Shown here in pieces: positions 11,890-61,370 of a stretch of DNA of 64,000 nucleotides. Position 1 is the first letter of the stretch. The number at the start of each line of letters is the position of its first letter. Origin of the DNA: Chrysaora quinquecirrha (Eukaryota > Cnidaria > Scyphozoa > Semaeostomeae > Pelagiidae); the NCBI GenBank assembly GCA_014526335.1, contig JACTAT010000037.1, positions 2,561,777-2,625,776 of the forward strand, read 5' to 3'. The notes below the pieces were generated by a model. It was not told the origin of the DNA and did not search any database. It saw only the letters and a program-made list of their open reading frames with translations. A program made the position numbers and the translations under genes.

Positions 11890-11995
11890 CTGAATAAGCA
11901 TGATAATAACACTAAATTTCTGGTCTATAAAATCAAGCAAATTGATAGCATTGGAATAGTTCAAAAGTGGTTTAAAAAAAAACAATAATTTTTAC

Positions 11996-33776: not shown

Positions 33777-33929
33777 ATTCTACTTTGGAATTGGGACACA
33801 ATTCATTTCAATTATTAATAAGATTTAAATGAGACAAAAAGCCATAAGTGAAATACTGATAATAATTATGACGACAAGTTTGCTGTTTTCTGTTTCTTTT
33901 TCTTTGCCTTGATCTTGTCTGGCTTTGTC

Positions 33930-34807: not shown

Positions 34808-34817
34808 GCTAACACAT

Positions 34818-34838
34818 TTCTACCCCATCAGGTAAGTA
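34818..34838 (-). ncRNA. U1: U1 snRNA 5' end fragment
   Basis: ATACTTACCTGATGGGGTAG on the minus strand, the U1 cap-proximal region, cut at the same point as the other copies. Confidence 0.85.
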
Positions 34839-35130
34839 TGCAGATTTTTCTTGCAGAGGGAGCGTGGTTCAGGAACTTCTTGTTTCAAATGTGGTACATC
34901 GGCAACAGACCACAAGTGAGAGGGTGGCACTTCCATTCCTTTGAGACTGGCATAGGATGAGAAGAGATTTGGTTGGACTCGTAGCTGTTGCAAGTCACTC
35001 ATGCTATGGTGGTGGTGAAAGGTTGAATAAATAAGGCAGAACATACAATGCTTGAGGCATAATAAAAGTTGATGTGTGGAATGTGAGAGACGGATTGCCA
35101 AAACATCCGCATGTTGCTGCATTGCTGTGT
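34839..35130. other. U2-U1 spacer (partial)
   Basis: Highly similar to 13030-13330, 44219-44515 and 59969-60265. It stops at the hairpin at 35131; the U2 gene expected next is missing. Confidence 0.8.
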
Positions 35131-40381: not shown

Positions 40382-40383
40382 GG
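39019..40383 (-). pseudogene. U2 element copy 2 ORF1 (RRM-like region, three CCHC knuckles)
   Basis: Open frame entered from U1-element sequence at the fusion point. It shows VFVNVYSVPFELHDDA and SFIHFGSESFRVQYN (RRM-like), then CRRCDQQGHNAINC, CFNCATLDHNISAC and CAICGSGRHDISEC, then a strongly acidic Glu/Asp/Asn tract and a Pro/Ser/Lys-rich tail. The authentic N-terminus is replaced by the fusion. Role: element RNA binding. Confidence 0.8.
40379..40383. other. Fusion point of U1-type and U2-type elements (ACTGG microhomology)
   Basis: Upstream on the minus strand the sequence follows the U1-element RT to just before its YADD box (VEFKIT); downstream it follows U2-element ORF1. Both parents share ACTGG at the crossover (compare 55983-55988 and 50000-50005). 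Confidence 0.85.
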
Positions 40384-42438
40384 TAATTTTAAATTCAACA
40401 TTGTTTATTGTAATACCAGTAATGTCTTGGTTTTTTCTGACTGATATTGCATAAATTTCAGAAACGAGGACATATAATAAGGGGGACAGGGGACATCCCT
40501 GCCTCACTCCCCTACCAAGGGTGAATGGGGCAGAGATGTTCCCATTTACTTTAACACGACTACTAATATTATGATATAAAGTTTTAATATATGAAATGAA
40601 TTGTGGCCCAAAACCAAAGCTTTTTAGGGTTTTGAAAAGGAAATTCCAGTTTACACGGTCAAAGGCTTTCATTTGATCTAAGGATAGAAAGGCTGCTGGG
40701 AGGTTTTCATTTTCCGCATAGTAAATAAGATCTCTTAATATATGTCAATTTGCCAAATTTGATCTATTTGGAACGCTACATGTTGGATCTTCAGAAACAA
40801 TGGTTGACAATACATCTCGTAAAGATTGGCAAGAGTTTTAGTAATTATCTTGTAGTCAACATTGAGCAGACTAATTGGTCTCCAATTACCTAGATCACTT
40901 TTGTCACCTTTCTTTTAAAGTGTTGAAATTAAGCTTACACGTTGAGTGTGGGAAAGTTGTTCTAATTCAAAACAGGTGTTAGCAACCTTTGTAAAATGCT
41001 CCCCAATGATATTCCAGAAGGTTTTATAAAACTCTACTGGAATACCATCAAGGCCTGGTGTTTTATTATTTTTCATTTTAGAAAGTGCTGTGTATAATTC
41101 ATCTTTTGTTAGTTGGCCTTCACAAGCGTCTCTGTCAGTGTCAGAAAGTTTGTTTTCTACTTTTGAAAGGAGTTCATCTTGCTTAGTAGTATCTGTTGAT
41201 TCATTTGCAAACATGTCAGAGTAAATTTTTTTGACAGTTTCAAGCATATCTTTTGGATTGTGTACTATTGTTCCTGTTTTGGTCTTAAGAGATTTCATAA
41301 CTTGAACGGCCTGGCGTTTTTTCTCTAAGTTACAAAAATATTTTTTGACCCTTTCACCCTCTTCTCACCAACGTGCTTTCGCTTTGACTTTTAAATTGAA
41401 TGCTTCGTTTGTTTCAAGGCATTTTATTTCTTTTGTGATACGGTCCACTAAATCTTTGAATGATTGTCTGTCTGTCTGTTCTGCTTTTTGGTCGCATTAC
41501 GTAATTGTTTATAGAGTTTTGATTTTTTCTTTTACGTTCAATTGAGAGTTTTATGCAATATTGTTTAGTACTTTTGCTATTTGTTTTTTAGCCTTATCCC
41601 ACCAATCAAGTGGATTACGAAAGTCATCAAAGATAGAAATCCAAAACTGGAGAAATCCGGACATTGCAAGCTGATATTCTTCTTGTTGTAAGATGGGCGT
41701 ATTCATTTTCCATGATCCCTTTCCCCTCTTTATTTTATCAAAATCAAAAACCAGTAACAGTTTTTGATGATCAGAGTGAGGAAAAGGAACAATTTCACAT
41801 TTTGTAAAGTAGTTCATTGTAGCTTTTGAGGTATAAAATCTGTCAAGTCTGCTGTATGTTCCAACTGGGCTTTTGTATGTATATTGTTTTTATCAGGGTG
41901 AAAGGTTCTCCAAATATCTTGTAAATCATTTTCATTAATGGTCTCAATTAGAGGATTTTTTTATCTGTCTATGTATGTTATGTCCCTACTTCTGTCGAAG
42001 TTTGTACCAAGAACTGTATTGAAATCACCACCATAAATTATAAATTCAACATCTTGATAATTTTGGATTTTAGTATGAATTTCAGAAAATTTATCTTTTC
42101 TTTTTTGTGTTTTATTACCTCCTGCAGGAACGTATATATTTATCAATAGAAAGCGGTAATCGTCAAAGGTCAAGCCAGTAAAAATATAGTTTCCTTCTTG
42201 GCAAATGTCATTAGAATGTATAGTTGCATTAAAATTTTCAGAAATGAGAGTGCTAACACCTTTTATCAGAAATAATGGAGTCTTTCGTGGTATGGTTTAA
42301 ATGGGTTTCCTGGAAAAATACAATGCTTGGCTTATCAATTTTTAAATTGTGGAAAATTGCTTCTGCCTTGAGTTGGTCATTCAACCCATTGACATTTATA
42401 CTAAGTATTGAAATAATTTTTTTTGGGTCAGGCCTCAA
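40384..42438 (-). pseudogene. U1 element copy C ORF2, N-terminal half
   Basis: APE-type endonuclease with LSINVNGLNDQLK, IVFFQETHL, INIYVPAGG, YGGDFNTVLG and SDHQKLL near 41785, then the RT approach TPGLDGIPVEFYKTFW, LGNWRPISLLNVDYK, MKAFDRVNWNFLF and RGVRQGCPLSPLLYVLV. It stops before the YADD catalytic box at the fusion. Frameshifts near 41900-42260 and 40750-40920. Confidence 0.85.
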
Positions 42439-42540
42439 AACATTTCATATGCTTGATTACATACAATATTCATTTTGAGAGGAGACGAGAATGAAAGAAA
42501 AAAAGGGAAAATTTATTGCAATGTCAACATCTTCTTTGAG

Positions 42541-44185
42541 TTATTTTTTCGGCTTCTTCTTTCTTTGTCTTTCTTTATCCTGCCGGTGCATCCTCGCTTC
42601 AGATGATGATGAAAATGGAATGGTTCTTTTGACATGGGTGAGTGAGGTTGAGTCTTGTACATGTGGTTGGTGTGATGTAGTAATGGTTGATTGTGACTGC
42701 AATGAAGGATTTGAGTATGCCAGAAGTGATGCTACAACTGAAGTTGGAATTATTAGTGGAGGTGTGGTAATGCTGTCCTTATTTGTTGAAGTGGCAGATG
42801 GATTGTCTTTCGTCGGTGGAATGGAATCTGTGTAAGGCAATGCTGGTTGGATATTGGCTACTGGAGTGACTTGTTGCTGTGGAAGTATGGATTGAGACTG
42901 TGATTGTTGTAATTCCTGTGATAGTTGGGTTTCAAGGAATGATGAAGTGCCAGGTAAATCTGTTTTTAATGGTGTGGATGAGGCATTGATTTGCAGTGAC
43001 AGTGGATGGACAGAGTTTGATGGTGAGACGGCTGAGGTTGATGCTTGAGATGGAGATATGAAACCTTCAACTCCGTCAACACTATGGGAGTCAAATTGGG
43101 TCGCGGCATCTCCAGTATGCTGTGAAGTCGAGGGCTCCAGACGATAAGCAGGGGCCTTTGGTCTGTCAATGTCACTGTTATAGTCGGAGAGTATAACAGT
43201 ATTGGCGTCAAATTCGTTTGGAATGTCGTTGTCCACAGTCATGTTTCTGTCAGAACCATTGCTAGAAAGGCCTGGTCTTCCAATGCTGCATGCCATTGGC
43301 CATTCTCCATTGAGCCTTGCTTGACAGTCTAAGTATTGATGTCCTTCATCACCGCAGTGAAAACAGAGTCTAAGGTCTTTAAGGGCACATTTGAATGATG
43401 GATGAAACTTGGAATTGCAGTGCATGCATATAGGTTGACGCCCCCGGAATGATATCAATATTTTTTGTCCTGATATGTTGATGAAAGGTGGTAATGGGTT
43501 CTCTGGATTTGGGTATATGGTTAAGAGTGAAGATGGATGGAAATTCTTGGTACGTTTGGTTCCAAATATTCTGAATTTTGTCATGGGCTTAAAGTTGCTT
43601 GTGTATTTCAAGATTTGAAATGTCAGGTGATGCAAAAGGGATGGTAATAAGTGTAGGGCGTTGTATGATGGGTGTTATTGGCAGTGGATGATGTGGCTGG
43701 GATGGCAGGAAAACTGTTTTGGCAATGAGGGTGTCAACCAATTCTGAAGATGAAAGGACAGCATTCCAGTTTTGGTGGCCTGGTCGTGATGGCATTCTTT
43801 GGAGGTGATTATTGGCGCATGGGTTGCTGAGAGTTTTATGAATGGTAGTGATTATTTCAATATGTGTGACAGTTGGGCTAGTGAAAAACCTTATGCCTCT
43901 AAATGCGATGCTAGATTGTTGTTGCTGCTGTGTAAGATTTTTAACTGTATTTGCAAACGAATTACAATTATCTGCCTGTACCTGGGAATGAACTGAGGAC
44001 TCTGTGGTCAATCTTTCTCTCCTTCTTCTACTTTCCTGCGCCAATCCTGTTTGCCAATTTTCATCTTCTTCCTCAGATTGAATGTGGGAAACTTCACTTT
44101 CTTCCTCTTCTTCTGCCATATCACTCCAACTTCTGTTACTCTGACCATCGTCTTTGTCGTCCAGAGAACTATTTCCTGACCTGCC
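42541..44185 (-). pseudogene. U1 element copy C ORF1
   Basis: A 1-nt deletion next to the start (44185) shifts the initiating ATG out of frame. The long frame then reads SWSDMAEEEEES, FRGIRFFTSPTVTHIEI, RPTLITIPFASPDISN, a frameshift near 43600, QPICMHCNSKFHPSFKC and CFHCGDEGHQYLDC, then a Ser/Thr/Gln-rich region and a basic tail DKERQRKKKPKK ending at 42541. This is the best-preserved ORF1 of the family. Confidence 0.8.
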
Positions 44186-44197
44186 ATGCTGACACAT

Positions 44198-44218
44198 TTC
44201 TTCCCCCTCATGTAAGTA
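44198..44218 (-). ncRNA. U1: U1 snRNA 5' end fragment
   Basis: Minus strand ATACTTACATGAGGGGGAAG. The splice-site-pairing stretch is mutated (ACTTACATG). Cut at the same U1 position as the other copies. Confidence 0.85.
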
Positions 44219-44596
44219 TGCAGATTTTTCTTGCAGAGGGAGCGTCGCTCAGGAACTTCTCGTTTAAAATGTGGTACATCGGGAACAAACCACAAGTGAG
44301 AGGGTGGCACTTCCATTCCATTGAGACTGGCATAGGATGAGAAGAGATTTGGTTGGACTCGACGCTGTCGCAAGTAACTCATGCTATGGTGGTGGTGAAA
44401 GGTTGAATAAATAAGGCAGAACATACAATGCTTGAGGAACAATAAAAGTTGATGTGTGGAATGTGAGAGACGGATTCCCAAGACATCCGCATGTTGCTGC
44501 ATTGCTGTTGGCAAGACGATGACGACAGACAGAGATGTTGGATAGTGGAAGGTTTACTGTGTTGCTTGTTTTATATTTACATTTCAAGATGAGGGG
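44219..44596. other. U2-U1 spacer, complete
   Basis: Intact spacer between the 3' end of the U2 portion at 44597 and the U1 5' end; matches 59969-60345 closely. It represents the sequence into which the P element jumped at 13.4/24.1 kb. Confidence 0.8.
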
Positions 44597-44745: not shown

Positions 44746-45040
44746 TTTTTTTTTAATTTTATATTATTTGGAGGTGCCCCCTGTTAAGCAGTAGGTACAC
44801 CTCCAGGCCCCCATAGACATAGCAGAGGCAGGTTTACAAGAAAACGGATTAATTACAGTGATACAAAGTAAATGGGGCTCTAATTACATTTCTAAGCTTT
44901 TAATTCCATCCATACATTTCTACAATAATCTCAAATACGATTCTAACATATTTTTAAAAACCGATAAAATATTTTGTCCATAGATTGCTTAAATTTTTGG
45001 GTTAAAAATTAAATATTGTTTGTAAGAGCCTAATTAACGC

Positions 45041-48000
45041 TCAAATGTTACAGTGAATTGAAATCTTCTCAACAAAGGCTACAATATTGTTAACAGTAAA
45101 TAATCTCAGAGTTTTACCTCCGTCAGTGGAAGCGGTATTATAAGCAACTTGAATACGATTCCTAACTTCCTTTCTAATTTCGTGAATAATATCCTTGCTT
45201 TGAACACGCTTTTTATCATAAACTGCTTTACATCTGCTAATCCAACTATAATAGCAAATAAGTTTAAGGGGGTAAAGAAGAAGAGGTCTGCATTTCGGTG
45301 CTACATGCACAGGCAAAATGCGTAAGAAAACAGTATCTGATGTCAGATCAAAATCTACAGTTCCCAGAGCCTGTTAAACTGGTTTAAAATTCACCCACGT
45401 TTCTATTGCGACTGGGCACTCTAGGAAGACATTCTCAATTGTTTCTAATTGGTCTCTACAACGGTTACAGTAACCATCTGTCTTGCATCCCCAAGACTTG
45501 ATGTATTGTAGAGTTTTGAACACACAATGGGTAAGTTTCCAAGCAACGTCATTTTCCTGCCCAAGTGACAGTCCAAATAAAGCAGATGACCATATGCTTT
45601 CCCAAGGAAGATTTCTTGATTGGATTATTATTTCCCATGAGCTTTGAGATCGGGGCTCGACCAACATTCTAATCAAGCTGAATTTGTGTAGGTTGTGAAC
45701 ACTAAGATTATCTGGAATAAGTTTGACAATGTCTGGAATAAATTTGTTTACCAGAGATAATAGGGTATCATAGAGTGGGGGGCAGTAGACGGAATTCGGG
45801 CTATTGTTGTTGCGGAGAAAGGTCCAAAGAGAAGAGTATTTGGAAAGGCTGCAACCTATTCAATAACAAGCCAACAATATCCATTTCGCAGAAGCACTTG
45901 GATCGCATATCGCCTTAAGAGAGCGAAGTAAAAGGGCTTGGTTTTTCAACCGAAGATTTATCAGACCTAGGCCGCCACTTTCACGTGGTTGGAACAAGAC
46001 TTCTCGTTTAAGTAACTTGTTTTTGGAAGACCATAAAAAGTCGAAAATGAGAGAGTGAATCCTAGTTAGGATATCTTTAGGTTCGCTGTATACAGTGGAA
46101 AGGTAGATTAAGCCAGAGAGACCAAGTGTGTTAATAATCATAACCTTCCCGTGAAGTAAGAGGGATCGGTTAGACCATGCATGAAGACGATTTTCTAGTT
46201 TGTTAACATGTTTCCTGAAACTGTCATGGATCGCTTTCTGAGATCCAAAAGTCATTCCTAGGATTTCAATGTTGTCTGCAGTCCACTGTAGCTCAGGGAC
46301 AGTGTTTGATGAAAGACCTTGATATTTGCCAAACCAGATAACTTCAGATTTACTTTTAGAGAAATTAACTTTTGATCCGGAGCCAGATTCAAAAGTGTGA
46401 ACAGAGTCGAAAGCTTCTGCTATTTATTTTTCGTCACAGACAAAGATGGTGGTATCGTCTGCATATTGACTTATTTTGACAGTAGTGGGGGATCCCGGTA
46501 GGGATAAGCCGGAGATTTTCTTGTTGTTCCTTACAGCGTTTCCAAGGGTTTCTGCTACAAGACAGTAGAGAAGAGGTGAGAGCAGACATCCTTGACGTAC
46601 ACCCCTCTGAAGAAGAAATTTTCTGAAAGAGTGACCGTTGTTTAGAACAAGCGAATGAACATTATTGTACAGCGATTCTATGAAGCTGACGAAAATGGGT
46701 CCGAAATTCATACGTTTCATGATTTTATGAAGGAAGTCCCAGTTGACTCGGTCACAGGCCTTTTCTTGATCAACTTTGATCAGGGCTAAAGGAAGTCTTT
46801 TCTGCTCTGTGTAGGAGATCAAATCTCAAACAAGAAAGAGATTGTCAAAAATGGTTCGATCAGGAACTGTGCATTTCTGGTCTTTGTGCAAGAGACAGAG
46901 ACGGAAGGACAGTTTTGAGACAATTAGAAAGTGTTTTTGTACCAATTTTATAGTCAACAATTAAGAGGGAGATGGGACGCCAATTCTTGATATCAAGTTT
47001 GTCACCTTTTTTAAAGAGAAGAGTAATCATGGCAAGTCTCATAGACTCGGAGAAGAGGCTGGAGGATAAAGAGTGGATTAAAACATCAACTAGGTCTGAA
47101 CCGAGTGTTGACCAGAAAAATTGGTAAAACTTTGCTGTTTACCCATCAGAGCCTGGAGATTTCTGTGGTTTCATTGAGGAAAGCGCAGCATGGCATGCAT
47201 CTTTGTCAAGATTGATTTCAAGAGATTCACGTTCAGTGGGGGAGAGAACACGAGAGATTTGAGATAAAAGAGATTCTTGAGCAGTGAGATCAGGCTGTTC
47301 GGCCGAATATAGACCTTCGAAAAAGCCAGCTGTTTCTTCTAGAATTGCTGGACTATGAGTTAAGGTAATGTTTCCTGATCTTAACGCGGTGATGACCTTT
47401 GAGCTTTGCTGGGAGTTCTCTAGATTGTAAAAATATTTAGTTGGCTTTTCAAACTCATTATAAAAGCGTTCTTTAGAGCAAATTCTAGCTCCTCTAATGA
47501 AAGAGTTGTCAAGTTGTCAAGCTGAAAGAGTTGTTAGTTCTGTTTTAATCTCTTCAATTAATTCTGAGTTTGATTTAGAAGGCTTGAGAGAGCTCAGACG
47601 TCTGAGTTCTTGTTCTAAATGGGCTCTATTTTGCCCCTTTCAAGAGCAAGACGCTTTGAGAATTTCATGGCAAGATGCTTAATTTTACGTTTATCTATAT
47701 CCCACCAAGCATTTAGGTCACGGAATTCAATCTTCCGTAACTGCCAGTGTGACAAAAAAGATTTAATTTTCTCAACAAAATCCTTGTTCTCTAAAAGTTA
47801 TGTGTTAAATTTCCAAACTCCTGGGCCCCTTTTCAGAGAGTTAGGGAGTTTAAAGGAGATGCTTGGAGCATCATGGTCCGAGTAAGGAAAAAACGTTATT
47901 GTTGAAGATTTACGGTTTCTAAAAATATCTCAAGACACATAAAACTTATCTAAATGACAAAGGATAGAGCCCTTTGGGGTTGGACCATGTAAAATGCGTG

Positions 48001-48555
48001 CAGAAGGATTAGAGTGTCTAAAGACATCTTGTAGTCCGAGGGTAGAGTTCAGTTGTTGCAGGGACCGCAATGCTGTGACTGCTAAATCAGTGTCACCCCC
48101 ATTTTTGTCTAGGTAGAGATCTTCAACAGAGTTAAAGCCGCCACCAAAGACTGTAGGGATGCCCTCTTTTAAAACAGCGTTCGGGGAATAAAAAAACAGT
48201 TTCCTATCCGCAACTTGGTTTGATGCATAAATGTTGCAGAACTGAATGTTTGTTTCTCCAAGATCTGCTATGATATTTATATATCGGCCCAAGATATCAT
48301 TTGACTGGGAAACGATAGAGAATTTGAGCTTGCTTGAAAATAGAGTACAGACTCCTGAGCTGTGGGGACTACCAGAAGATAAAAATATCTGTCCATCCCA
48401 TTCGCGTTTTAGCTGAGGAAGATCGGAGGAGGCGAGATGGGTTTCTTGTAGGAAAATAACGTCCTGATGCTGATTTTTAACCCACTGAAAGATTTTCTGA
48501 CGTTTCCTGAAATCCTTCAGACCATGGGTGTTAATGGTAATGCATTTGAAGTTTA
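45041..48555 (-). pseudogene. U2 element copy 1 ORF2 (endonuclease, reverse transcriptase)
   Basis: Begins near 48555 with CITINTHGLKDFRKR and VIFLQETHLASS (catalytic Asn and Glu of APE type), FGGGFNSVEDL in place of the usual GDFN, and a lost SDHQ-like site. RT fragments: IKNWRPISLL, LIKVDQEKACDRVNWDFL, RGVRQGCLLSPLLYCLV, QYADDTTIFV, LHGKVMIINTLGLSGLIYL. The C-terminal region contains CKTDGYCNRC...VFLECPVAIETW, a probable zinc-binding motif. At least six frame breaks. Confidence 0.85.
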
Positions 48556-48651
48556 TCGTTTAGATAGGTTTATTGTCTTGAGATATTTTCGAGGGGGCAA
48601 GGTTAGAATAAATAGAAAGAATAATTGTAAATAAAAGTTCTATACAAACAG

Positions 48652-50054
48652 TTATTTGAATACTCCTGATATTTGACTTGCAAGAGAGGCATCAGACTTC
48701 TTCTTTCGAGGTTTGGAAACTGACTGCTTTTTTTCTTGAATTACTACACTTTTGAAAGTTGAAGACCCAGAAGATGAGTCATCATGGATTCTTTTTGATG
48801 ATGTTGTGCTACTTTCTGATATGTTTCCTGTATCTTGATCGTTGTTGGCTTCAGGGATGCTTTCCGTAGGTTTGGATGGTTGATATTTCTTTGGTCTTGT
48901 GGACTTTCGGGAGGATCTTTGAGGCTTCGGTGGAATTTCAGGTTTTTGTTGCTCGGTAGTTGCTGTCTTTGAAGAGTCCAAATGGATTTTTGGAGGAGGT
49001 TTGGCGAATAGTTTTTCTAGGTCTGGGAGAGAAGGTGGAAGGATGTTTGCTTTATTCAGGAAAGAGAAGGTGAACTGTTTTGGTGGGGTGTTGAAGGCAA
49101 CGTTGGCAAATGGGTTTGGAAGTAAGGAGCCTGACTGCTGGGTGGGTGTGTTAAATAAGGAGGCTGATGTTTCCATAGATGGTATGGGTTCGTCTTCACT
49201 ATCTGAAACCTTTGTGCTTTGACTTTCTAGAATTTCACCTTCTTCCAATTCTTCAGTTGCCTCAATTTCTTCCGCGACATTTCTCTGTTCTTCTTCTTCA
49301 TCACCGGCTTCTGCATTTCTTTGTTCTTCCCCTTCTGCTTTTCCTTCGTCATCTTCATTCTCATTTTCTGTCTCAACCTCTTCCCCTAGATCTTCATCGT
49401 TTCTTTTTGCTTCTTCCACATTGGACGCGCGGAAAGTATCGTAAATGATTTCGTCATCATTTGGTAGCTATTCAGCTCAATCAGATATGTGGTGTTGAAA
49501 TGAGCCACATATCGCACACATGGATTTTGCTCGCAAGTGTTGACTGTGTGGTCAAGTTCTCCACAGTTGAAGCATCTGGATCTTTGACACTGACTGGCGG
49601 TGTGGCCGGGTCTATCACACTTTCGGCAGGTCATTGGCTGTCCATCATATCTGACCAAGAACGAGTCACTTCCAAAATGGATGAAAGATGGTATGCAATT
49701 GCGAAGGTGCATTCGCAGGTGACATGCTCCGTTTTCACAACCTTGCATTGCAGCATGATGTCCTCTGCAGATGCTAAGGACTCTTCCGTATCTCTTGAGT
49801 TTGCAGGTGATGGCATCATCGTAAAGTTCGAATGGAACATTGTAAACGTTCACAAAGGCCGTAGTATTTGATGGATCCGAAATTGCTAGAGCATCCCCAC
49901 TTTTAAGCTTCAGTGTGGCAAATTTTAGAATTTTGTCTTTGTCTCGGGAACTAGAAACGGTTACCATGATATCCCCATTGGTATTCTTTGCCAAAGAGAC
50001 TGGGGTTACCTCCAGATGCTCTTTACAGAGGTCGAAAACCTCTTTAGGATCCAC
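48652..50054 (-). pseudogene. U2 element copy 1 ORF1 (RRM-like region, CCHC knuckles, acidic tail)
   Basis: Reads MDPKEVFDLCKEHLEV, AFVNVYNVPFELYDDA, SFIHFGSDSFLVRYD, CRKCDRPGHTASQC, CFNCGELDHTVNTC and a partial third knuckle, with a frame break near 49440. A Glu-rich segment (EEQRNAEAGDEEEEQRN) and a Lys/Pro/Ser-rich tail follow. The start at 50054 is the first ATG in frame with the conserved block. Confidence 0.85.
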
Positions 50055-50460
50055 TTGTAGGCCACTTGGTACTCGGAGAGATACTGTTGTTGGACGTTTA
50101 AGACGCGCAAATGCACCAGTTGGTAAAAAACGCCTTTAAACTGGAGCCGGTCTATTGGCATTGTTACCTTGATTTGAAGCAGCAGCAGCTGAATACATGA
50201 TAGAAAAGGAAAAAATTTCCAATTACCACAATAGATGCGATGAGCCAAGATGTGATTACCACAATAGATTCGATCAAGTAAAATTTTTGATTTCCCATGT
50301 GTGCTTTGATGATCCAAAGGACACAAAGTCCACCTGCTGCCAATCAATGGGCCCCAGGCTATATATAGCCCAGACAAATTCACCTTTGCACCCAGAGAAC
50401 AATGGGGTGAGCTCCTCAGTTTCCGGTTGCAATGCAATCGAAAAGGGCATCGCCATAGAG

Positions 50461-51047: not shown

Positions 51048-51186
51048 AGGGGACTAGCCCGAACACAGGTCCCCACTACCAGAAATTGTATGGTCGAGTT
51101 ACCAACGTTTGCGGTATTCCCAGGGGTCAGCCAAACCGAACTGCAATGGAAAGGCCTCGCCCTGGAAGAATCTCCTTGTTGATCAA
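51048..51186 (-). ncRNA. U1: U1 snRNA 3' portion
   Basis: TTGATCAACAAGGAGATTC, CCAGGGCGAGGCC, CTGCAGTTCGG-like stem, AATTTCTGGTAGTGGGG and a 3' stem-loop ending AGTCCCCTT. It follows poly(A) of the inserted U1 element; its 5' 22 nt are at 59947-59968. Confidence 0.9.
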
Positions 51187-51196
51187 TTTTTTTTTT

Positions 51197-51219
51197 GAGC
51201 TAGGCACATGCCTACGCCC
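51197..51219 (-). promoter_or_regulatory. 3'-terminal stem-loop of the U1 element
   Basis: On the minus strand GGGCGTAGGCATGTGCCTAG and CTC directly precede poly(A); TAGGCA pairs with TGCCTA. The same hairpin is at 32465-32487 and 61379-61401. In other non-LTR elements 3' structures are recognised by the element's RT; here that is inference. Confidence 0.6.
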
Positions 51220-51767
51220 GTTTAATTTTTCCAATTAACTCAACATATTTACAATTTAAAATAATATAATAAAATTAGTTATGAAATTGTTCAAATTGAA
51301 ATGTATTGTTCATTGCTAAATGTTCATTGTTTTAGAAATATCGTTAAAGTGTCCATTTTAATTTCAAATACAAATTTAACTAAATTATTCTAATAACAAC
51401 AACTAATAACTATTCTAATAAACTTAATACTACAACAACAACAAAGCTATAACTACAATTAATCTTAATAAATTACTTACTTAACTAATGATAAAACTAC
51501 AACTAATGAAATTAATAAATTACTTAAATATATTTTAAATTACCTAAATAAACCTAAACTACAACTTATTGAATACTTATTAAACTACAATTGAAATTCC
51601 CTAATATTAAGTTAAAAAATTCAAACGTTGAAACAATAAATAATTAATGTAATAAACGCAATAATAATTCATAAAGTCTACGGAAATAAAAGGAAAGACG
51701 GAAAAGTAAAGCAATAAAAAAAAGAGAAAAAAAAATAGAAATCAGGAAAATGTAAACGAGGCAAGTC

Positions 51768-52614
51768 TCAGGGGGCGTTGATTTTGAGTTTTCTATTCTC
51801 AAGGGAAGCAAGGATGCCATTTTTACACCATTTTTGTTCGAGAAGATTGAATGATTCAACATCCTGTGAAGCCATGAAATGTTCTTCTTTGAGCTTGGAA
51901 ATAACCTTGAAGATGAATCTGTTTTTCAAATCATCTCCTTTGTTGTCAAAAATAATTTCATTTCTTGTTTTCCAAATGACTCAAAAAGCTGCATCTCGTA
52001 AAAAGTTTTCTACAGGTAAGTCGGGTTTATATTCGTAAAAGCCAAGGATAACAAACTTACAAATGTTGTTTAGATTGAGGGTGGGGTTGATTTTCTTTAC
52101 AAGTTTGAATACAAATTTCCACAGTTTACTGACAGGGGTACAATTGAAAAAAGCATGAAGGGAAGTTTCATCATAGGAATTGCATCTTTGACCACAGGGG
52201 TTTGGACAATCCTATGTCTATACAATCTGTCATAGGTAGGGAGACAAAGTTGAAGAAACTTCCACTGAATATTGGCAGATTTTCTGTCATGATTTCTTTT
52301 AAATAAAGTTTTGAAGAGTCTTGGCCAATTGACATAACCTATTTTTTGTTCCCAAAAAACTCTAAATTTCTGAGCAATAACATTTTGATCTTTCAAGATG
52401 AGCATATTGTAGATTGTTTTGCAAGTCAGAGATGAAAATAAAACATATTCATCTTTGGTATTTTTAATATAAAAGTCATCAGATAAACTTCTTTCATTGC
52501 TGCACTCAGTTGTTATTTTTTCTTTCCATTCAGGGGGTAAGCGTGATTTCAATTTGGAGTAGAAACTGTCTGAGAAACCAGAAGGGATTAATTCATTCAG
52601 GGCAATGGAAGGTA
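51768..52614 (-). pseudogene. U1 element copy D ORF2, C-terminal part
   Basis: Continues ORF2 beyond the pogo-like insertion: PSIALNELIPSGFSDSF, RLPPEWKEKITTEC, NWPRLFKTLFKR. A frameshift near 52200 disrupts the Cys/His motif that is intact in copy E; the frame ends at 51768. Confidence 0.85.
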
Positions 52615-55109
52615 CTATCTGGTCTCTAATAGACGGGGGGGTTGGAATGGTAGGGGGGTTGGAAAAAATCGAAAAAATTAATAGCCGGGGGGGTTGGAAT
52701 AATAGGGGGGGTTGGAAAATATTTCAAAAATCAATAGCTGGGGGGGTATGAAAAAATTAATTTTCTAAACTTTCGTTTTGGCAATGGAAGCTTTAACAAT
52801 AACATAACATAACAACGATAGCACAAGAACTTTTCTTTTTAAGTTTAGCTTCTACATGTCCTCTAACATATCAAAATGTTACGTTCATCTTCATTAGCAA
52901 TTTCTAAAAGACTGTCATTGTCTTCACTAGAATTTGTATTATCATCATCTTGCCTGGTTTTCGTCAGGATTCTTTTCTTTAAACTGTGCCTTCCTTCAAA
53001 AAAGCCTGCCTTTATTTTATGAAGGTGCGGTTTGAACAATAAACTTGTCTCGTTATCCTCGAACAACTTTTGAAGATCATCCAGAAACTTTGCCTCTTTA
53101 TTCACATCAGAATCACTGCAAATGTTTTGAAGTGATTTGATAGCTGGCACATGGCTAGTAGATGGAAGAAACTCCTGATCTGCAGCGCTTTCAGCTTCCA
53201 CCTCTCTTCTTTCACTTTCCACCTCGTTGTCGCTAGAAAATTGCTCACTGTTTTCAGACTTGGCTTCAGATGCTAAATCTTCAAAGATTGCTTAACCCTC
53301 CATGTAGTCAAGCAACTCCATTCCTTCGATATTATTACGTCGGATTCCTTTTGGAGGGATGAGGGTTTTTATGACGGCTTGTAAGTTGATAGGGAGTTTA
53401 GAGCTCAGTAGCTCTCTTCGGAATTCCAACATATCATCGCCGATTAAGGAAAAGAGCTTATCAGACACAAGGAAATCCTCTGATCCATCCAGTTTATTGG
53501 TGACGAAAAGCTTTTTGAACACAGCAGCAAAATCTACATCAGTTTCCTTCTAAGCAGCAAGAAGCAAGTTGATCATTTCCTCCCGACTTGGTGCAGGCAC
53601 TTTATTCTTATCGACCTCCAATTTCTTTAACATCAGCGCCATTTCCTCATGCCTGTATCTACTCTTGAGATGGTGATGGAGGTCAGTATCATTTGCTTGA
53701 ATAAAACCAGTTATGCCTCCTCCCATTATAACAAGAATGTAACCTCTTAGGTAAAGGGCTTTTCTTACCTCGGGAATGAGATGTACGGCATAATCGTCTA
53801 AGACGTACATGGTGAAATCTTTCTGAGTAAAAGGATTGTAGCGATTGGGAAGATGGCTGATAGTTTCAAGCATTTGCTCGATTCGATAAGAGCCACTCGG
53901 AGACCATTGGTACTTTACAGAATCTGGAACTGATACTTTGGTACGTGTTCCTTTGCCTTTAGATACAAACTCTGGACTTAATTTGATGCTCTTTTTATTA
54001 GTGGCTTGCGTGAAGACCGTCACCCTTTCCCGGAAAGCATATAATTTTCTTTTACAAATGTATCCTCCCCCTTGAATGCGAGTGTTTTTTGCTGGGAGGA
54101 TTCTGTCCAAGCCACTGCTCGTATAGTTGGTTGGCCTTCAGTTTAAAAAGGCGTTGGGGAAGACGTCCCCTCAGCGTTTCTCTCACATCAACAAACCAGG
54201 CAAACAACGCTTGCCGAACATCTGAAGCTTTAATCTTTCTACCGGCGCCAGACGCTCTTGCCTTCTTTGGTGGGCACGAAGAAGGATCTTGTAAGATATC
54301 TATATCTTGGCATGAACGGGAAGCTAGCTTGATAGCTCTCTCAAATGCTGGATCGCCGTTACGGACGTCGGCTAAATCAGAGTAGAACATGCGAACAGCT
54401 TAGGCAACGTACCCTGTAGTTGGTTTGATTGGCACATGTTTTTTTCTTTTGTAGTCGTACTTCGTTTTCCCTTGATTTCGCTGAACCTCAGCATCATATT
54501 CTTCCTTGCAGCTTTTCACCAATTCGGCTAGAGCCAGTTTCTCTTCATTCGAGTATATTTTCTTTTCACCGCGAATAAATTTTCGATCCATCGTTCCTGC
54601 CATCGATGCAACAACTTTTAAGAATGTGTTCGTGTTTTTGCTTGCAAATTCTAGACCATGTTCACACTTCACACAAAAAGAAATTGCAGTGACGCTTTTT
54701 AACAATCACATGTAGGAACACAAAGATTACCACATTCGTCACGTGTGGAACATGATAGGAAGTCTCACGTGAAATTTTCGATCACATTCCACACGTTTAT
54801 GCACATGATAGATCTTTGTATTCGTACACGTGATTGTTAACAACGTCAAGTTTATGCACATGATAGATCTTTATATTCGTACACGTGATTGTTAACAACG
54901 ATGGACATTCCATACTATTGTGCACATTGGAAATTCTATTTTATGTATTGAAAAGTTTTGGGCTAACAGAATTTTGTTGCGTTGCTTTTGTCTTGTTTGG
55001 AACTCGTTGCCAGAATTGATTAGCGGGGGGGGTTGGAATAAGAATGTCCTGGGTGGAAAATTTTCTAAAAATTAATAAGCGGGGGACGTCTATTAGAGAC
55101 CAGAGAGTA
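52615..55109 (-). mobile_element. Pogo-like DNA transposon (2.5 kb) inserted in U1-element ORF2
   Basis: Ends share CT(C/A)TCTGGTCTCTAATAGACG and are flanked by a TA duplication (52613-52614 and 55110-55111). Removing it restores the host ORF2 frame (TVFLPSIALNE). Subterminal GGGGGGTTGGAA repeats occur at both sides. It encodes a DDE_1-type transposase on the minus strand. Confidence 0.9.
52863..54606 (-). pseudogene. Pogo-like transposase (DDE_1 type), stops and frameshift
   Basis: From MAGTMDRKFIRGEKK the N-terminal part contains YSNEEKLALAELVKSC (helix-turn-helix-like), a TAA at about 54402, SDVRQALFAWFVDVRE (second HTH-like region), a frameshift near 54075, then the nuclease part with VTVFTQATN, YVLDDYAVHLIPE (Asp) and GFIQANDTDLHHHLK (Asp), i.e. 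the second and third acidic positions of DDE_1 transposases. TAG at about 53551 replaces a Trp codon kept at 63.77 kb. After EGMELLDYMEG a TAA (shared with the second copy) precedes an acidic C-terminal segment to 52863. Confidence 0.8.
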
Positions 55110-58072
55110 AGAACACAGTTGTAAATTCATAACAAATGTCTCGTATTGTTGTAATCTTAGCGTGTATCCAAGCATTACTGGTATCAACATGTGTGAAATA
55201 GTTGTCGAATAAAGGTTCATTGTAAATTTCTTCAATATCTGTGGGTTTTAGTCTAAGGTCTGAAAAATTTGCTGCAAAACATTTTATGACATCTTGATAA
55301 AACTGTGGGACATGTTTCATTTCAATCGAACGTAATTAACATTTGAATATTTTGGCTCCAATGTTAAAGTTCTTATACTTATCAAAGTTCAAGGCGAACA
55401 GTGCTTTCCATTTTTACTGATTGTCATTTTGAAGATATTTTGAAATCCAAGATAATTTAATGGCATCAGCTTTCTTTTCAATATCTATTATGTTCAACCC
55501 CCCTAATTCGTATGGAAGTCTTGCTTGTGTACGCTTAATAGGATCTTTTTTATTCTGATAAATGAACTTCCACAGTCGGTCGTTAATTTTCTTGAGAACC
55601 CACTGGGGAAGAGGATCTATGGCTGCAGTGTACCAGAAGACCGAACTGGCCAGCTGGTTTGCTACCACAGCCCTCCCCCTCGAAGAAAGATCAGGAGAAG
55701 TCCAAAGGTCTAAGGTTTTTATAAATTTGTTTACACGTGGGTCCCAAGTTTCTTTTTCTTTCAAAACAGGGCTATGGTAAACACATAGAATTTTCAATGC
55801 TTCTCTACCCCATTTCAAATCAAATGGATTGTCTGATCTGTTTTTATATCTGCCAAGCCAAATTCCATTACTTTTTGCTTTGTTTATTTTAGCTCCTGAT
55901 GCCATTTAAAAATCTTGGACACAATCAAAGGTTGATTTGACGGACTGTTCACCTTGCAGGATTATTGTTGTGTCATCAGCATACTGGGTAATTTTAAATT
56001 CAACATTTGTTATTTTAATATCAGTAATGTCTTGGTTTTTTCTGACTGATATTGCAAAAATTTCAGAAACGAGGACATATAATAAGGGGGATAGGGGACA
56101 TCCCTGCCTCACTCCCCTACCAAGGGCGAATGGGGCAGAGATGTACCCAATTACTTTAACTAGACTACTAATATTAGAATACAATGTTTTAATATATGAA
56201 ATGAATTGTGGCCCAAAACCAAAGCTTTCTAGTGTTTTGAAAAGGAAATTCCAGTTCACACGGTCAAAGGCTTTCATTTGATCTAAGGATAGAAGGGCTG
56301 CTGGGAGATTTTCATTTTCAGCATAGTAAAGGAGATCGCTTAATATATGTCCGTTTGAAAGAATTGATCTATTTGGGACACTACATGTTTGGTCTTCACT
56401 TACGATACAAGATAAAACATTGCGTAAACGATTAGCAAGAGTTTTTGCAATAATTTTATAATCAACATTCAGCAGACTTATTGGTCTCCAATTTCCAAGA
56501 TCACTTTTTTCACCCTTTTTATATAATGTTGAAATTAGGCTAACACGTTGGGAATGAGAAAGTTGTTTTAATTCAAAGCAGGTATTAGCAACTCTTGTAA
56601 AATGTTCCCCAATAATATTCCAGAAGGTCTTGTAAAATTCCACTGGAATACCATCGAGGCCTGGTGTTTTATTATTTTTCATTTTAGAAAGGGCTGTGTA
56701 TAGTTCATCTTTTGTTAGTTGGCCTTCGCAACTGTCTCTGTCAATGTCAGAAAGTTTGTTTTCTACTTTTGAGAGCAGTTGATCTTGCTTAGTAGTATCT
56801 GTTGGTTTGTTTTCAAACAAATTGGAGTAAAATGTTTTGACAGTTTCAAGCATATATTTTGGATTGTTTACTATTGTTCCTGTTCTGGTCTTAACAGACT
56901 TCATGACTTGTGCAGCTTGACGTTTTTTCTCTAAATTACAAAAATATTTGGTGACCCTTGCACCCTCTTCTGTCCAACGTGCTTTTGCTTTGACTTTTTA
57001 ATTGAATGCTTTATTTGTTTCAAGGCGTTTTATTTCTTTTGTGATACGGTCTACTAAATCTCTAAATGACTGTCTGTCTGTCTGCTCCGCTTTTTTGGTT
57101 GCATTGCGCAATTGCTTATAAAGTTTTGACTTTTTTTTTACGTTCAATTGAGAGTTTTATGCAATATTGTTTAGTAATTGTTGCTATTTGTTTTTTAGCC
57201 TTATCCCACCAATCAAGTGGATTATGAAAATCGTCAAATATGGAAATCCAAAACTGGAGAAATCCAGACATTGCAAGTTGATAATCTTCTTGTTGTAAGA
57301 TGGACGTATTCATTTTCCATGATCCCTTTCCCCTCTTTATCTTATCAAAATAAAAAACCAGTAACAGTTTCTGATGATCAGAGTGGTGAAAGGGAACAGT
57401 TTTACATTTTGTAAAGTAATCCAGTGTAGCTTTTGAGGTATAGAATCTGTCAAGTCTGCTGTATGTTGCAACTGGGCTTTTGTATGTATATTGCTTTTCA
57501 TCAGGGTGAAAGGTTCTCCAAATATCTTGTAAATAATTTTCATTAATGGTCTTAATTAGAGGATTTTTTGATCTGTCTGTGTATGTTATGTCCCTACTTC
57601 TGTCTAAGTTAATATCAAGAACTGTATTGAAATCACCGCCATAAATTATAAATTCAACATCTGGATAATTTTGGATTTTAGTCTGAATTTCAGAAAATTT
57701 ATCCTTTCTTTTTTGTGTTTTATTACCTCCTGCAGGAGCATATACATTTATCAATAGAAAGCAGTGATCATCATAGGTCAAGTCAGTAAAAATGTAGTTT
57801 CCTTCCTGGCAAATTTCGTTAGAATGTATGGTTGCGTTGAAATTTTCAGAAATAAGAGTGCTAACACCTGCAAAATTATTGGCAGAAATTGAATGAATTT
57901 TGGTGCCTTTCCATCTAATTTCAGAAATGATTGAATGTTTAGTATTTACATTTAGATGCCTTTCTTGCAAAAATATAATATCGGGCTTGTCATTATTAAG
58001 ATGGTGAAAGATTGCTTCTGCTTTGTTTTTGTCATTTAAACCATTAACATTTATACTAACTATAGATGGCAT
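55110..58072 (-). pseudogene. U1 element copy D ORF2, endonuclease and reverse transcriptase
   Basis: ATG 58072 opens MPSIVSINVNGLNDKNK. APE-type residues: Asn in NVNG, Glu in FLQERH, INVYAPAGG, GGDFNTVLD, SRLDRFY and SDHQKLL (Asp, His), so the nuclease triad is complete. A frame break lies between 57116 and 56904. RT blocks: GLDGIPVEFYKTFW, LGNWRPISLLNVDYKIIAK, LLSLDQMKAFDRVNWN, RGVRQGCPLSPLLYVLVSE, QYADDTTII. A TAA at about 55908 replaces a probable Lys codon. The frame continues through the thumb region to the pogo-like insertion. Placement with Tx1/L1-type elements follows from the APE and RT motifs. Confidence 0.9.
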
Positions 58073-58169
58073 ATTGAGCTAGGTTTTGGGACACAATTCA
58101 ATTCAAGCTACAAATTCATTAAAAAAGTAAAAAAATTAGTGAATATGTGTTGATGCTATTAAAAAAAAA

Positions 58170-58783
58170 TTAGGTGAATGTGTGTTGATGTGAATGTGTT
58201 TTTTGCCTCTTCTTCTTCCTCTTTGTTCTTTCTGAGTCTTGGTGTGTGGACGTCATCTTCTGTGATGATGAGGATGAGGAAATGGGTCTTTTATGTTGTG
58301 ATGAAATGGAGGTAGTATTTGGAGATGAGGTGGGTTGACTGAGTGAGAATACAGATGTAATGACTGGGGATGTTGCTTGTGTGTTTGGAGGTGAATAATT
58401 AAAAAGAGTTTGTGCAATAGTTTGTGTGATTAAATGTGAGTTTGGGGTGATTTGTGTGGATGGTGAAAATTGTTGTTGTTGTTCATTGGATGGGGTAATG
58501 TGGATGTGTGGTAATATGTGGATGTGTGGTAATATAGTTTTATTGTGGAAATGCGTTCTGTTGTGATATGTTTGGAAGGATGGATTGTGATTCAAATTGT
58601 TGTGTGGCTTGTGGAGATTCTGGGGAGTTTGGAATGATGATATTGCCTTGTGCCGATATTAATGGTTGGGTTGGTTGAACTGGTGTTGGTTGTGGAATGG
58701 GTGGAGGGCCCTCAGCCTCGCTACCACTGCTTCCGTCAAACTGTGTTGGGTCATCGTCTTGTTGGTCTCCCTCACTCTCATTC

Positions 58784-58823
<40 letters not shown>

Positions 58824-59936
58824 CTTTGTTCGAGGGCCTAAGCCTATACTTAGGCCCTGCTTGTCTGTCCTGTTCGTCTGTCTCACTCTCACAATTGTCC
58901 TGTGGCTGTGATGTAGGCCTAAGACGATTCCTAGGCAGTGGCCTGTCCAGTTCACTGTTATAGTCAGACAGTATTACTGTATCACCGTCAAAATTATTGT
59001 CGTCACTGTTGTCGTCACTCATGTCACTGTCAGATGTTTTTCTTCGTACCGTATTGTAAGTTGTTGGTCTGTCACCGTTTTGTCTAATGTCACAGTCCAC
59101 GTAGTTATGTCCATCATCTCCACAGTAATAGCACAGCTTTAGGCCCCTCAGGTTGCAATTGATGGTGAGATGGAAAGTTGAATTACAATGAATGCAGATG
59201 GGTTGACGTCCTCTAAATGAAATGAGTATTTTCTGGCCGGAGATGATTATGAAGGGTGGGAGTGGGTTTTCAGGATTAGGATAGATGGTGCATAAACGTT
59301 TGCCAGTGGATATTGTGGGAAATTCTTGATATGTTTGATTCCAGATGTTCAATATTTTTCATGGCACTCAAGCTGTTCAAAAATGGCTGAATTTGAGATG
59401 TCAGGTGAGGCAAATGGGATGGTAATGAGTGTTGGTCTTTGGCGTATGGGCTGTATTGGTAATGGGTGTTCAGGTTGAGAAGGAAGGAATATGGTTTTTG
59501 ATAAGAGGACGTCAACCAATTGTGATGATGATAATATGGCGTTTCGATTTTAATGACGTTGTCTGGGTGGCATTCGTTGTAAGTGAGTGATGGCACAGGG
59601 GTTGTTTAATGTCTTGTGAATTGTTTTGATGATTTTGATGTGTGTTATTGATGATTTGGTATAAAATTTAATGCCTCTGAATGCTAGGCCACTGTGAGTA
59701 GTTTCTTTTTTATCTTTACGTCAGGTTTCTGCAAAGGTATTACCTGCGATGTTCTGAGTTTCTGTATCCTGTTCATTGTCTGATGTTATTGATTGATTCT
59801 CTTCCGATTGCTGTTCTTTCTCCTGCGCATGCGCGATTCTTGAAGGCTGTATATTATCATCTTCAACAATGTCACTCCATCTTCTATTGGATTCCATCTG
59901 TAGATCTTCTGTGGCACTATTACCTGACAGATCCAT
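58170..59936 (-). pseudogene. U1 element copy D ORF1
   Basis: ATG at 59936 lies 10 nt from the U1 junction. Reads MDLSGNSATEDLQME, RRWSDIVEDDN, TGA at 59721-59723, LAFRGIKFYTKSS, frameshifts near 59590 and 59350, FPTISTGKRLCTIYPNPEN, CIHCNSTFHLTINC and CYYCGDDGHNYVDC, an Asp-rich block, a CAA-coded polyglutamine run (58783-58822) and a basic tail RTKRKKKRQK ending at 58170. Confidence 0.85.
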
Positions 59937-59946
59937 GCTTAGGCAC

Positions 59947-59968
59947 TTCTTCCCTGTCAGGTAAGTAT
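59947..59968 (-). ncRNA. U1: U1 snRNA 5' end fragment (nt 1-22)
   Basis: ATACTTACCTGACAGGGAAG then AA: intact cap-proximal U1 with ACUUACCUG and the 5' strand of stem-loop 1, whose partner GATTCTTCC is at 51.16 kb beyond the insertion. Confidence 0.92.
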
Positions 59969-60345
59969 GCAGATTTTTCTTGCAGAGAGGGCGTCGTTCA
60001 GGAACTTCTCGTTTCAAATGTGGTACATCGGCAACAGACCACAAGTGAGAGGGTGGCACTTCCATTCCCTTGAGATTGGCATAGGATGAGAAGAGATTTG
60101 ATTGGACTCGTCGCTGTCGCAAGTCACTCATGCTATGGTGGTGGTGAAAGGTTGAATAAATAAGGCAGAACATACAACGCTTGAGGCATAAAAAAAGTTG
60201 ATGTGTGGAATGCGAGAGACGGATTGCCAAGACATCCGCATGTTGCTGCATTGCTGTTGGCAAGACGATGACGACAGACAGAGATGTGGCATAGTGGAAG
60301 GTTTGCTGTGTTGCTTGTTTTACATTTACACTTGAAGATGAGGGG
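59969..60345. other. U2-U1 spacer (U1 promoter region)
   Basis: 377 bp between the U2 3' end and the U1 5' end; strongly conserved with the other spacers. No gene. Confidence 0.8.
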
Positions 60346-60529
60346 GTGGGCCATCCATGGCGGCACTGCAATACCAGGACAACCCGTGTCTGGGGTGAAG
60401 CAAGCTTCAGACCCAAGGACCAATTCCAAAAATCAGTTTAATATTTGAGCACCCTTGGGTGCATTTCTGATATTAAGCTGATAACAACAGATACTACACT
60501 TGATCTTAGCCAAAAGGCCGAGAAGCTAT
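60346..60529 (-). ncRNA. U2: U2 snRNA gene, best-preserved copy
   Basis: About 184 nt on the minus strand: ATAGCTTCTCGGCC, TTTTGGCTAAGATCAAG, GTAGTATCTG, stem IIb GCACCCAAGGGTGC, Sm site GATTTTTGGAA and 3' CTGGTATTGCAGTGCC-like stem. Differences from the usual U2 are A for C at nt 3, TTGTTATCAG for TTCTTATCAG in stem IIa and ATATCAGAAAT in stem IIa/b, so it may be weakly functional. Confidence 0.92.
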
Positions 60530-60677
60530 AACGAACAAGTCTTTGCTTCTCACCGCGACTCCACACATTTTGCAATCACACATGGGTGCAGGACAGCGAC
60601 ACGGAATTGCCAGTCCATGTGTGCAATACCTGGATAAATACGTCGGTTGCAAAGAAGGACTGGAATTGCAAAACGTG

Positions 60678-60797
60678 AAGCCTACAACACCAGGTGTTCC
60701 CAGGCGGTCACCCATCCAGGTACTGACCTGGCCCGACCATGCTTGACTTCGGTGATCGGCCGAGAACCAGTATATTCATGGTGGTATGGTCGTAGGC
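60678..60797 (-). rRNA. 5S: 5S rRNA gene, intact 120 nt
   Basis: Minus strand GCCTACGACCATACCACCATG, written here as its first bases GCCTACGACCATAC, through AGTCAAGCATGG (box A region), GTACCTGGATGGGTGACC (box C) and GGTGTTGTAGGCTT. Length is exactly 120 nt. Transcribed in the same direction as U1 and U2. Confidence 0.95.
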
Positions 60798-61231
60798 GAA
60801 AGCTAGAGGGCCGAATGTGCATGACACTGCAGGCTAGAGACGCAGAAGTGTGCCCATGCACATGTACGTGTACCATCTGATCCATACGAAGTGGGTGGAT
60901 GGGGGTAGATCTTGGCAGGTGTGCAGTGCTGCTGAGAAGGTGTGGTGAGGACTCTGGCCAGTTGGAACAGCAGGCGTTACATTCGTGGAAGCCCAGCTTG
61001 CTCTTTAATAGTGTTGCAAAGGATGGGCTTCTGGTTGCCGCTGTACGAGTGTGGGAAATGTTGGTGCATCTTCCGGCATCTGGAGTGGAAGATGTGGAAA
61101 ACGGCAAAGAGTCGGTAACTTGCACACTCTTTGTAGAGTGAGGGAATTTTTGTGTCGAGAGATGCCTGGTAACTGGCAAGTCGTGGTGGTGTGCTGACAT
61201 GTGTGCAGAATTTGACATTAGTACTATTGGA
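60798..61231. other. U1-5S spacer, complete
   Basis: 434 bp without a gene. It is the reference for the interrupted copies at 24581-24803/32100-32314 and 50685-51047. The Gypsy target CAAA lies at about 61017. Confidence 0.8.
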
Positions 61232-61232
61232 A

Positions 61233-61268
<36 letters not shown>

Positions 61269-61370
61269 ATTGTACGGTCGAGTTACCAACGTTTGCGGTA
61301 TTCCCAGGGGTCAGTTAAACCAAACTGCAATGGAAAGGCCTCGCCCTGGAAGAATCTCCTTGTTGATCAA
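61232..61370 (-). ncRNA. U1: U1 snRNA 3' portion
   Basis: Same structure as 51048-51186, with AATTTCTGGTAGTGGGG and GTTCGCGCTAGTCCCC well preserved. Follows the poly(A) end of U1-element copy E. Confidence 0.9.

Follow-up and report, generated by a model that had tools for sequence, protein, structure and literature searches.

The window analysed here is a stretch of 64,000 nucleotides (nt) of the Chrysaora quinquecirrha genome (C290:2561777-2625776, in an assembly of 328 Mb and 740 contigs). It lies in a region of several megabases in which tandem units of about 1.41 kb, carrying the genes of U1 small nuclear RNA (snRNA), 5S rRNA and U2 snRNA, are full of non-long-terminal-repeat (non-LTR) retrotransposons with an apurinic/apyrimidinic endonuclease (APE). 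Rfam matched three U2, three 5S and two U1 genes in the window, every one on the minus strand, and the U1-5S-U2 stretch of the window aligned with one intact unit of C290. Elsewhere on this contig seven intact units follow one another with a period of 1409-1412 bp. The three genes share one strand within a 1.41-kb tandem unit, and the units are scattered over C290 at ~1.8-5.6 Mb in both orientations. Among the matches listed, intact U1 genes were found at 1.80-5.61 Mb of C290, in either orientation, and on C656 (at least 42 matches, all above the family cut-off, with 42 of 5306 candidates scored). Four copies of one retrotransposon family, designated family A, interrupt U1 genes in the window (Table 1). 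Family A is a U1-specific non-LTR retrotransposon, as most of its copies lie at one U1 base and stem from separate insertions.

Intact U1 genes read ...GGGGAAGA-CATC-TTGATCAAC... at the genomic loci, and the uninterrupted U1 sequence is ATACTTACCTGACGGGGAAGACATCTTGATCAACAAGGAG. Because of this reading, the bases at the junctions are nt 21 and nt 26, and CATC (nt 22-25) is absent from the interrupted genes. As the sequence-only reading had claimed, four 5' ends abut U1, each with a leader of nt 1-21 (some bases changed) followed by the element at 59947, 44198, 34818 and 13008 on the minus strand, and at three 3' ends the poly(A) gives way to U1 nt 26, at 61370, 51186 and 32453. The insertion site is real; the span 59947-61370 given in that reading is mostly an array unit (U1 3' part, 5S, U2 and U1 leader) between two elements rather than an element.

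The same junction was recovered throughout the genome. A 28-base pattern of the family A 3' end, with no U1 sequence inside and up to three mismatches allowed, had 151 genomic matches vs none for the reversed control. Of the 100 matches that were read, those in U1 numbered 29 of 30, 19 of 20 and then 50 of 50 (46 fetched, three from known loci and one from the window), and in all 98 the poly(A) joined U1 nt 26 in sense orientation, a few being short by a T or so. The orientation claimed for the elements is confirmed by these tails, and the opposing possibility that most copies lie outside U1 was not borne out. With 151 matches against none in the control and 98 of 100 at U1 nt 26, the preference for this site is far beyond chance. 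Poly(A) lengths vary widely among the tails, and U1-joined tails were also present on further contigs (C380, C107, C220 and C83 for family A; C324, C620 and C380 for a second family, family B). At the other end of the element, 58 5' ends matched a pattern of U1 leader plus element, which is biased to U1 by design, and the control gave none. Empty sites were represented by 51 uninterrupted full-length U1 matches, a count that includes repeats among overlapping loci.

The structure of family A was read from a whole element, L097 (C290:3650400-3657100), in which U1 nt 1-21 are followed by 6257 bp, poly(A) included, and then by U1 nt 26. Both open reading frames (ORFs) are open, ORF1 with 565 aa and ORF2 with 1270 aa. 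ORF1 had no Pfam match, and two knuckle-like motifs are found in the ORF1 of each of families A and B. The Pfam domains of ORF2 are Exo_endo_phos (the APE), RVT_1 and zf-RVT, together with the motifs GGDFN, SDH and YADD. The nearest solved structures were those of LINE-1 ORF2p (PDB 8sxt and others), with E-values of 1.3e-46 for the reverse transcriptase (RT) piece and 3e-32 for the endonuclease (EN) piece, whereas the best R2 structure matched the RT piece much more weakly (3.9e-16). By the N-terminal APE and central RT domains predicted in ORF2, the element is an APE-type non-LTR retrotransposon of the L1/Tx1 superfamily, and the separate ORF1, the simple poly(A) 3' tail and the 5' truncations are further characters of that class. 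A search of the genome with the RT (89 of 3156 candidates scored) gave at least 95 matches for families A and B together, 81 of them on C290, all at 1.85-6.40 Mb of its 15.3 Mb, and the remaining 14 of the matches listed on C380, C220, C107, C324 and C620.

In copy D of the window, frame comparison revealed broken reading frames and ~2.4 kb of other DNA within ORF2; its EN piece lies at 57119-58072 and its RT piece, which is 94.6% identical to that of L091, at 55909-56904. Copy C is fused at ~40.4 kb to a U2-type element and has lost its own 3' end, and a 3' end of copy A was not found within the window. Short derivatives were also observed in U1 genes elsewhere: L049 (C290 ~2715140-2715582), of 0.44 kb, consists only of the two family A ends, with the U1-complementary arm described below included, and has both U1 junctions, and L096, of 1.5 kb, has family A ORF1 sequence and a different 3' end that is not poly(A).

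Table 1. Positions in the window of the retrotransposon copies and of the array genes that they interrupt or adjoin
Feature	Positions	Strand	Basis or remark
Family A copy D	51187..59947	-	Both junctions; ORF1 ATG at 59936
Arm of copy D, complementary to U1 nt 5-16	59920..59931	-	TCTGTCAGGTAA
Family A copy C	40379..44198	-	ORF1, EN and part of RT
Family A copy B	32454..34818	-	2.4-kb internally deleted derivative; both U1 junctions
Family A copy A	9723..13008	-	ORF1 region, with an RT remnant (9723-9902) probably belonging to this copy
U1 3' part (from nt 26), disrupted gene after family A poly(A)	61232..61370	-	Rfam U1 match 61232-61393; junction
5S rRNA gene of array unit	60679..60797	-	Rfam RF00001, 105.7 bits
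U2 snRNA gene of array unit	60341..60529	-	Rfam RF00004, 155.6 bits
U1 nt 1-21 leader upstream of copy D	59948..59968	-	Sequence read at junction
U1 3' part from nt 26, after copy D	51048..51186	-	Rfam; junction
U1 leader (diverged) before copy C	44199..44219	-	Junction
U1 leader before copy B	34819..34839	-	Junction
U1 leader before copy A	13009..13030	-	Junction
U2-specific APE element, poly(A)-tailed, between U2 nt 25 and nt ~36	44747..50460	-	EN and RT pieces by tblastn

A single U1 family had been proposed from the sequence of the window. That family is real, and a second U1 family, a U2 family in the same units and a U1-complementary 5' end had been overlooked. In the second U1 family, family B, the 5' ends follow U1 nt 38-41 (L007, L047, L062, L068, L092 and L094), and the tail, a GGCATTCGCCAG stem plus poly(A), leads into U1 nt 26 (L022 and L098). 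The junction at nt 26 is common to both families, whereas 13-16 bp are duplicated in family B and 4 bp are lost in family A. Genome-wide, 53 family B tails were found at up to three mismatches and none in the control; the 15-base core is intact in 36 of the 53, and 29 of these 36 have an exact match to U1 nt 26-36 downstream. The two families share 40% identity in ORF1 (over 219 residues) and 47% in ORF2. B-related 3' sequences without the B tail also occur, ending at nt 24 in L090 and at nt 26 in L095. One element, L091 (C290:2657600-2666200), is a chimera with the 5' junction and ORF1 of family B and the ORF2 of family A, and it may have arisen by recombination or template switching between the U1 families.

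The U2 genes of the same units have an element family of their own, represented in the window by a copy of 5.7 kb. Its tail pattern had 59 matches, 54 on C290 and five on C380 and C724, vs none in the control, and all five tails that were read resume U2 at nt ~36. Further copies were observed at L089, L009, L021, L023 and L033. At L089 (C290:3022600-3029800) a U2-family element without its 3' part is fused to U1 from nt 33 and is likely a recombinant. Another type of 5' end (GGCGAAGCTCTATCCG...) follows U2 nt ~25 in L006 and L040, and could perhaps belong to a second U2 family.

In family A the ORF1 ATG is at base 12 of the element, with 11 nt before it. Of 25 distinct 5' ends, 17 carry from base 17 onward CCCGTCAGGTAA, which is perfectly complementary to U1 nt 5-16; in six of the others the match to U1 is 9-10 nt long, and in the remaining two it is 6 nt. 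When the first 150 nt of L097 were dinucleotide-shuffled 5000 times, a complement of 11 nt, the longest, arose once and one of 12 nt never, so that a chance origin was rejected. When leader and element were folded together, U1 nt 5-16 were wholly paired with the element in 15 of 16 distinct 5' ends, and the predicted fold of L097 has -32.4 kcal/mol (z -4.29; of 200 shuffles, one did equally well). When 12 representatives were compared in pairs, identity averaged 82% over the first 36 columns and 48% over those that follow; the arm is conserved, unlike the rest of ORF1. The exact 12-mer is present in 37 of the 58 patterned 5' ends, C-to-T changes that keep G-U pairs are the only changes in 15, and a pair is broken in six; all 12 pairs are retained in 52 of the 58 if G-U is counted, and among the possible single changes in the arm 7 of 36 keep pairing. 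The arm of copy D has two C-to-T changes, each forming a G-U pair with consensus U1. The variation of the arm supports a pairing constraint and does not prove it, because the copies share ancestry and the search pattern is strict (up to three mismatches). A U1 complement in family B and a U2 complement in the U2 family were also considered and rejected, the longest match being 5-8 nt.

The junctions could be explained as follows. The element endonuclease most likely nicks the antisense strand of U1 between nt 25 and nt 26, and reverse transcription of the element RNA, with its poly(A) tail, would be primed by the free end at this nick. Each family probably has its own preferred position for cutting the second strand (nt 21/22 for A, nt 38-41 for B), as suggested by the fact that most of the 5'-truncated copies examined keep the U1 position of their family; the two families would thus have the first nick in common and differ in the second cut. 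Annealing of a cDNA of the U1 leader to the target was considered as the origin of the 5' junction and set aside, because 5'-truncated copies cannot carry the leader and mostly join the same base. Family A is probably transcribed from the U1 promoter, since only 11 nt precede the ORF1 ATG and the copies read are sense, and its RNA would start with U1 nt 1-21. The 12-nt complement may fold with this leader and hide the bases with which U1 recognizes splice sites, or it may bind U1 snRNA or the U1 small nuclear ribonucleoprotein (snRNP) in trans. The U1 genes lost would be compensated for by the many others. We assign a probability of about 0.8 to this reading, i.e., an APE non-LTR family that enters one exact U1 site by its own antisense nick at 25/26, which primes reverse transcription, and that uses the U1 promoter and forms a leader hairpin; the junctions, orientation, counts, ORFs, conservation and complementarity were observed directly, and the nicking, the use of the promoter and what the hairpin does are proposed from sequence. 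A more elaborate picture, in which the element is built round U1 (promoter, 21-nt leader, and a 12-nt antisense stretch that locks the leader or recruits the snRNP) and has a sister lineage with the same nick and a second cut 17 bp away, is tentative and in our estimation falls a little short of an even chance.

Several observations weigh against the nick-primed, U1-adapted element proposed here. Two of the 100 family A tails lie outside U1 (L039 on C152 and L088 on C424). For family B, an exact U1 match is missing downstream of seven of the 36 intact-core tails, and of the eight tails read as sequence, seven are in U1 and one is outside (L145, on C2). One B copy (L023/L090), with ~38 nt of its 5' end gone, is joined to U1 nt 24 at either end, so that the second cut is not fully fixed. 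The 12-nt complement was not found in family B, where the longest U1 match in ten 5' ends is 5-8 nt, and it is therefore not needed for U1 targeting; in one of four folded B leaders (L094) the element pairs with 9 of the 12 bases, in other ways. Within family A, copy C (44198) is without most of the arm and is the sole exception among the 16 folds. Six of the 58 5' ends break a pair; counted by variant type, four types keep the pairing and four break it, and a single variant, probably with one origin, accounts for 12 of the 15 copies that keep pairing by wobble. Some copies were multiplied with the array, as in three tails ~8.65 kb apart (2039266, 2047914 and 2056578). Finally, the complement can also be read as a 5' splice site (CAG|GTAAT).

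This last point could be extended to an explanation in which the complement is the element's own 5' splice site, binding U1 snRNP in trans, for instance to prevent premature polyadenylation or to hold the RNA close to U1 genes, while the cis hairpin is a by-product. 5' splice sites are inherently complementary to U1, all but two of the 25 distinct 5' ends retain GTCAGGTAA (longest match of at least 9), and most of the altered copies retain G-U pairs with U1. However, the complementarity extends through U1 nt 12-16, short of which the usual splice-site stretch ends, and the leader of the same molecule is within reach; we regard the splice site as an unlikely explanation that nevertheless deserves serious consideration. 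It is distinctly improbable that the 5' conservation reflects the ORF1 N-terminus (MDPSGNS) only, with no pairing of nucleic acids. The arm does fall in ORF1 codons 2-6; weak points against the purely protein-level explanation are that four-fold sites are nearly fixed (those of arm codons 3, 4 and 5 are changed in 3, 0 and 1 of the 58 5' ends), and that 15 copies, of which 12 represent a single variant, have C-to-T changes that alter the amino acid and keep the G-U pair.

Concerning the site itself, it might be supposed that one or a few ancestral U1 insertions were spread by unequal exchange and gene conversion in the array and that little site preference exists at present. The units are tandem, some copies recur at a constant ~8.65 kb, and exchange between copies does occur, as seen in the chimera L091 with its B-type 5' end and ORF1 and its A-type ORF2. 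However, the 5' flanks (315 bp) of the copies at 59947, 44198 and 13008 are 93.3-93.9% identical, while the first 1.5 kb of the elements are 57-58% identical (69-71% over 0.6-0.7 kb of ORF1 in blastn). As the flanks are much alike and the elements far more diverged, these copies represent separate insertions, in accordance with the sequence-only reading. The flanks of the copy at 34818 are 94.0-94.6% identical, and its element values (44-66%) were excluded from the argument because its internal deletion forces unrelated sequence into the alignment. Moreover, 5' truncations are varied and each is at the U1 base of its family (in family A, L022 from ORF1 residue 49 and L096 from residue 155; in family B, L019 from residue 194 and L036 from residue 70). 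Single U1 genes have also received tandem insertions: in L083 an A tail and U1 nt 26-40 are followed by a B-like 5' end, and in L149 a B tail and U1 nt 26-40 by another B-like 5' end. Together with the presence of two families, the many poly(A) lengths and the U1-joined tails on contigs beyond C290, these results largely refute the copying of one insertion with the array, which has nonetheless multiplied some copies, and as the general explanation it is very improbable. A regional preference for silent chromatin or a safe haven, reached by chromatin targeting with no reading of U1 sequence, would agree with the location of 81 of at least 95 RT matches at 1.85-6.40 Mb of C290, and is refuted, leaving it next to no probability, by base-precise junctions in 98 of 100 tails, always on one strand, and by a U2 family that has its own, equally precise site in the same units.

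Other mobile DNA was also observed in the window, namely a TNP-like (P-element type) transposase at 20008-22551 (plus strand), a Gypsy-type frame with RT, RNase H and integrase at 26111-27721 (minus strand), and, at 14679-19943, a frame encoding an RT close to an inverted repeat of 1.3 kb (98%).

In an RT tree of 125 rows, for which a length filter retained 115 of 120 database proteins and removed five, each of families A and B and the U2 family had a support of 100, and the database protein P0033 joined A and B at 98. A tree of 243 rows grouped A and B with P0033, P0121, P0122 and P0123 (0.993) and the U2 family with P0110 (0.997), with the U1 and U2 families apart; the relatives in these trees are unnamed or unplaced proteins and human L1, with no named Tx1-clade sequence among the hits. 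P0121, a B-like full-length ORF2, and P0110, a U2-family-like RT, may occur together on one contig of another genome, which is a lead only. The RT fragment P0001, filed at the National Center for Biotechnology Information (NCBI) under a metagenome-assembled genome of Desulfobacterales, is 85-91% identical to family A copies (85% to L097), and is likely host contamination in a symbiont assembly. A search for relatives of the families gave 20 pattern matches in public genome contigs, none of them confirmed, and none in viral contigs.

In the excerpted text of PMC4640811, Keno, Utopia, Dada-U1 and Dada-U6 are the only elements reported for snRNA genes. No U1-targeting non-LTR retrotransposon was named in the titles and abstract openings of the papers listed, and a prior report or a Repbase/Dfam entry is possible. 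Excerpts of PMC5753468 treat sequence-specific Tx1 elements in crocodilians, citing SINEU work that may bear on novelty. For elements of this class U1 would be a novel target, and it would join the short list of snRNA genes used by retrotransposons. If true, one snRNA base is a landing point common to two families, and lineages that share the first nick and differ in the second cut provide a natural experiment on the poorly understood cutting of the second strand. The U1-complementary 5' end makes it testable how site-specific elements cope with a host RNA leader on their messages, and site-specific elements are of interest for targeted gene delivery.

Among the known systems, Keno belongs to the Tx1 clade, R2 has a restriction-like endonuclease, both R2 and R1 target 28S rDNA, and L1 is not known to be site-specific. 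Families A and B resemble Keno, as described in the excerpts of PMC4640811 and PMC3706591, in the APE endonuclease, the RT and the insertion at one base of an snRNA gene. They differ in targeting U1 instead of the U2 snRNA genes (Keno being compared by description), while the separate U2 family does insert in U2, which it resumes at nt ~36, near the published 3' flank that Keno and Utopia have in common according to the available part of PMC4640811. Utopia, in the same source, likewise targets an snRNA gene and has several families kept in one array, but it combines a restriction-like endonuclease with U2, whereas A and B combine an APE with U1; the APE domain in place of a restriction-like endonuclease also separates them from R2. 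Dada-U1 of zebrafish shares the target gene U1. However, it is a DNA transposon in the excerpts of PMC3706591 and PMC8869645, with a DDE transposase and a duplication of 6-8 bp (GCGAAT/GCGAAC) elsewhere in U1 (PMC3706591), and not an RT element with a 4-bp loss (A) or a 13-16 bp duplication (B). The likeness to R2 (excerpts of PMC5035012) and R1 lies in a multicopy RNA gene as refuge and in the co-transcription with the host gene that would be expected; unlike some R2 families, which have a ribozyme like that of hepatitis delta virus at the 5' end (PMC5035012, as excerpted), no Rfam ribozyme reached the gathering score in the window. With human LINE-1 ORF2p, the EN and RT pieces of family A align nearly full length, at an RT identity of 29.5%.

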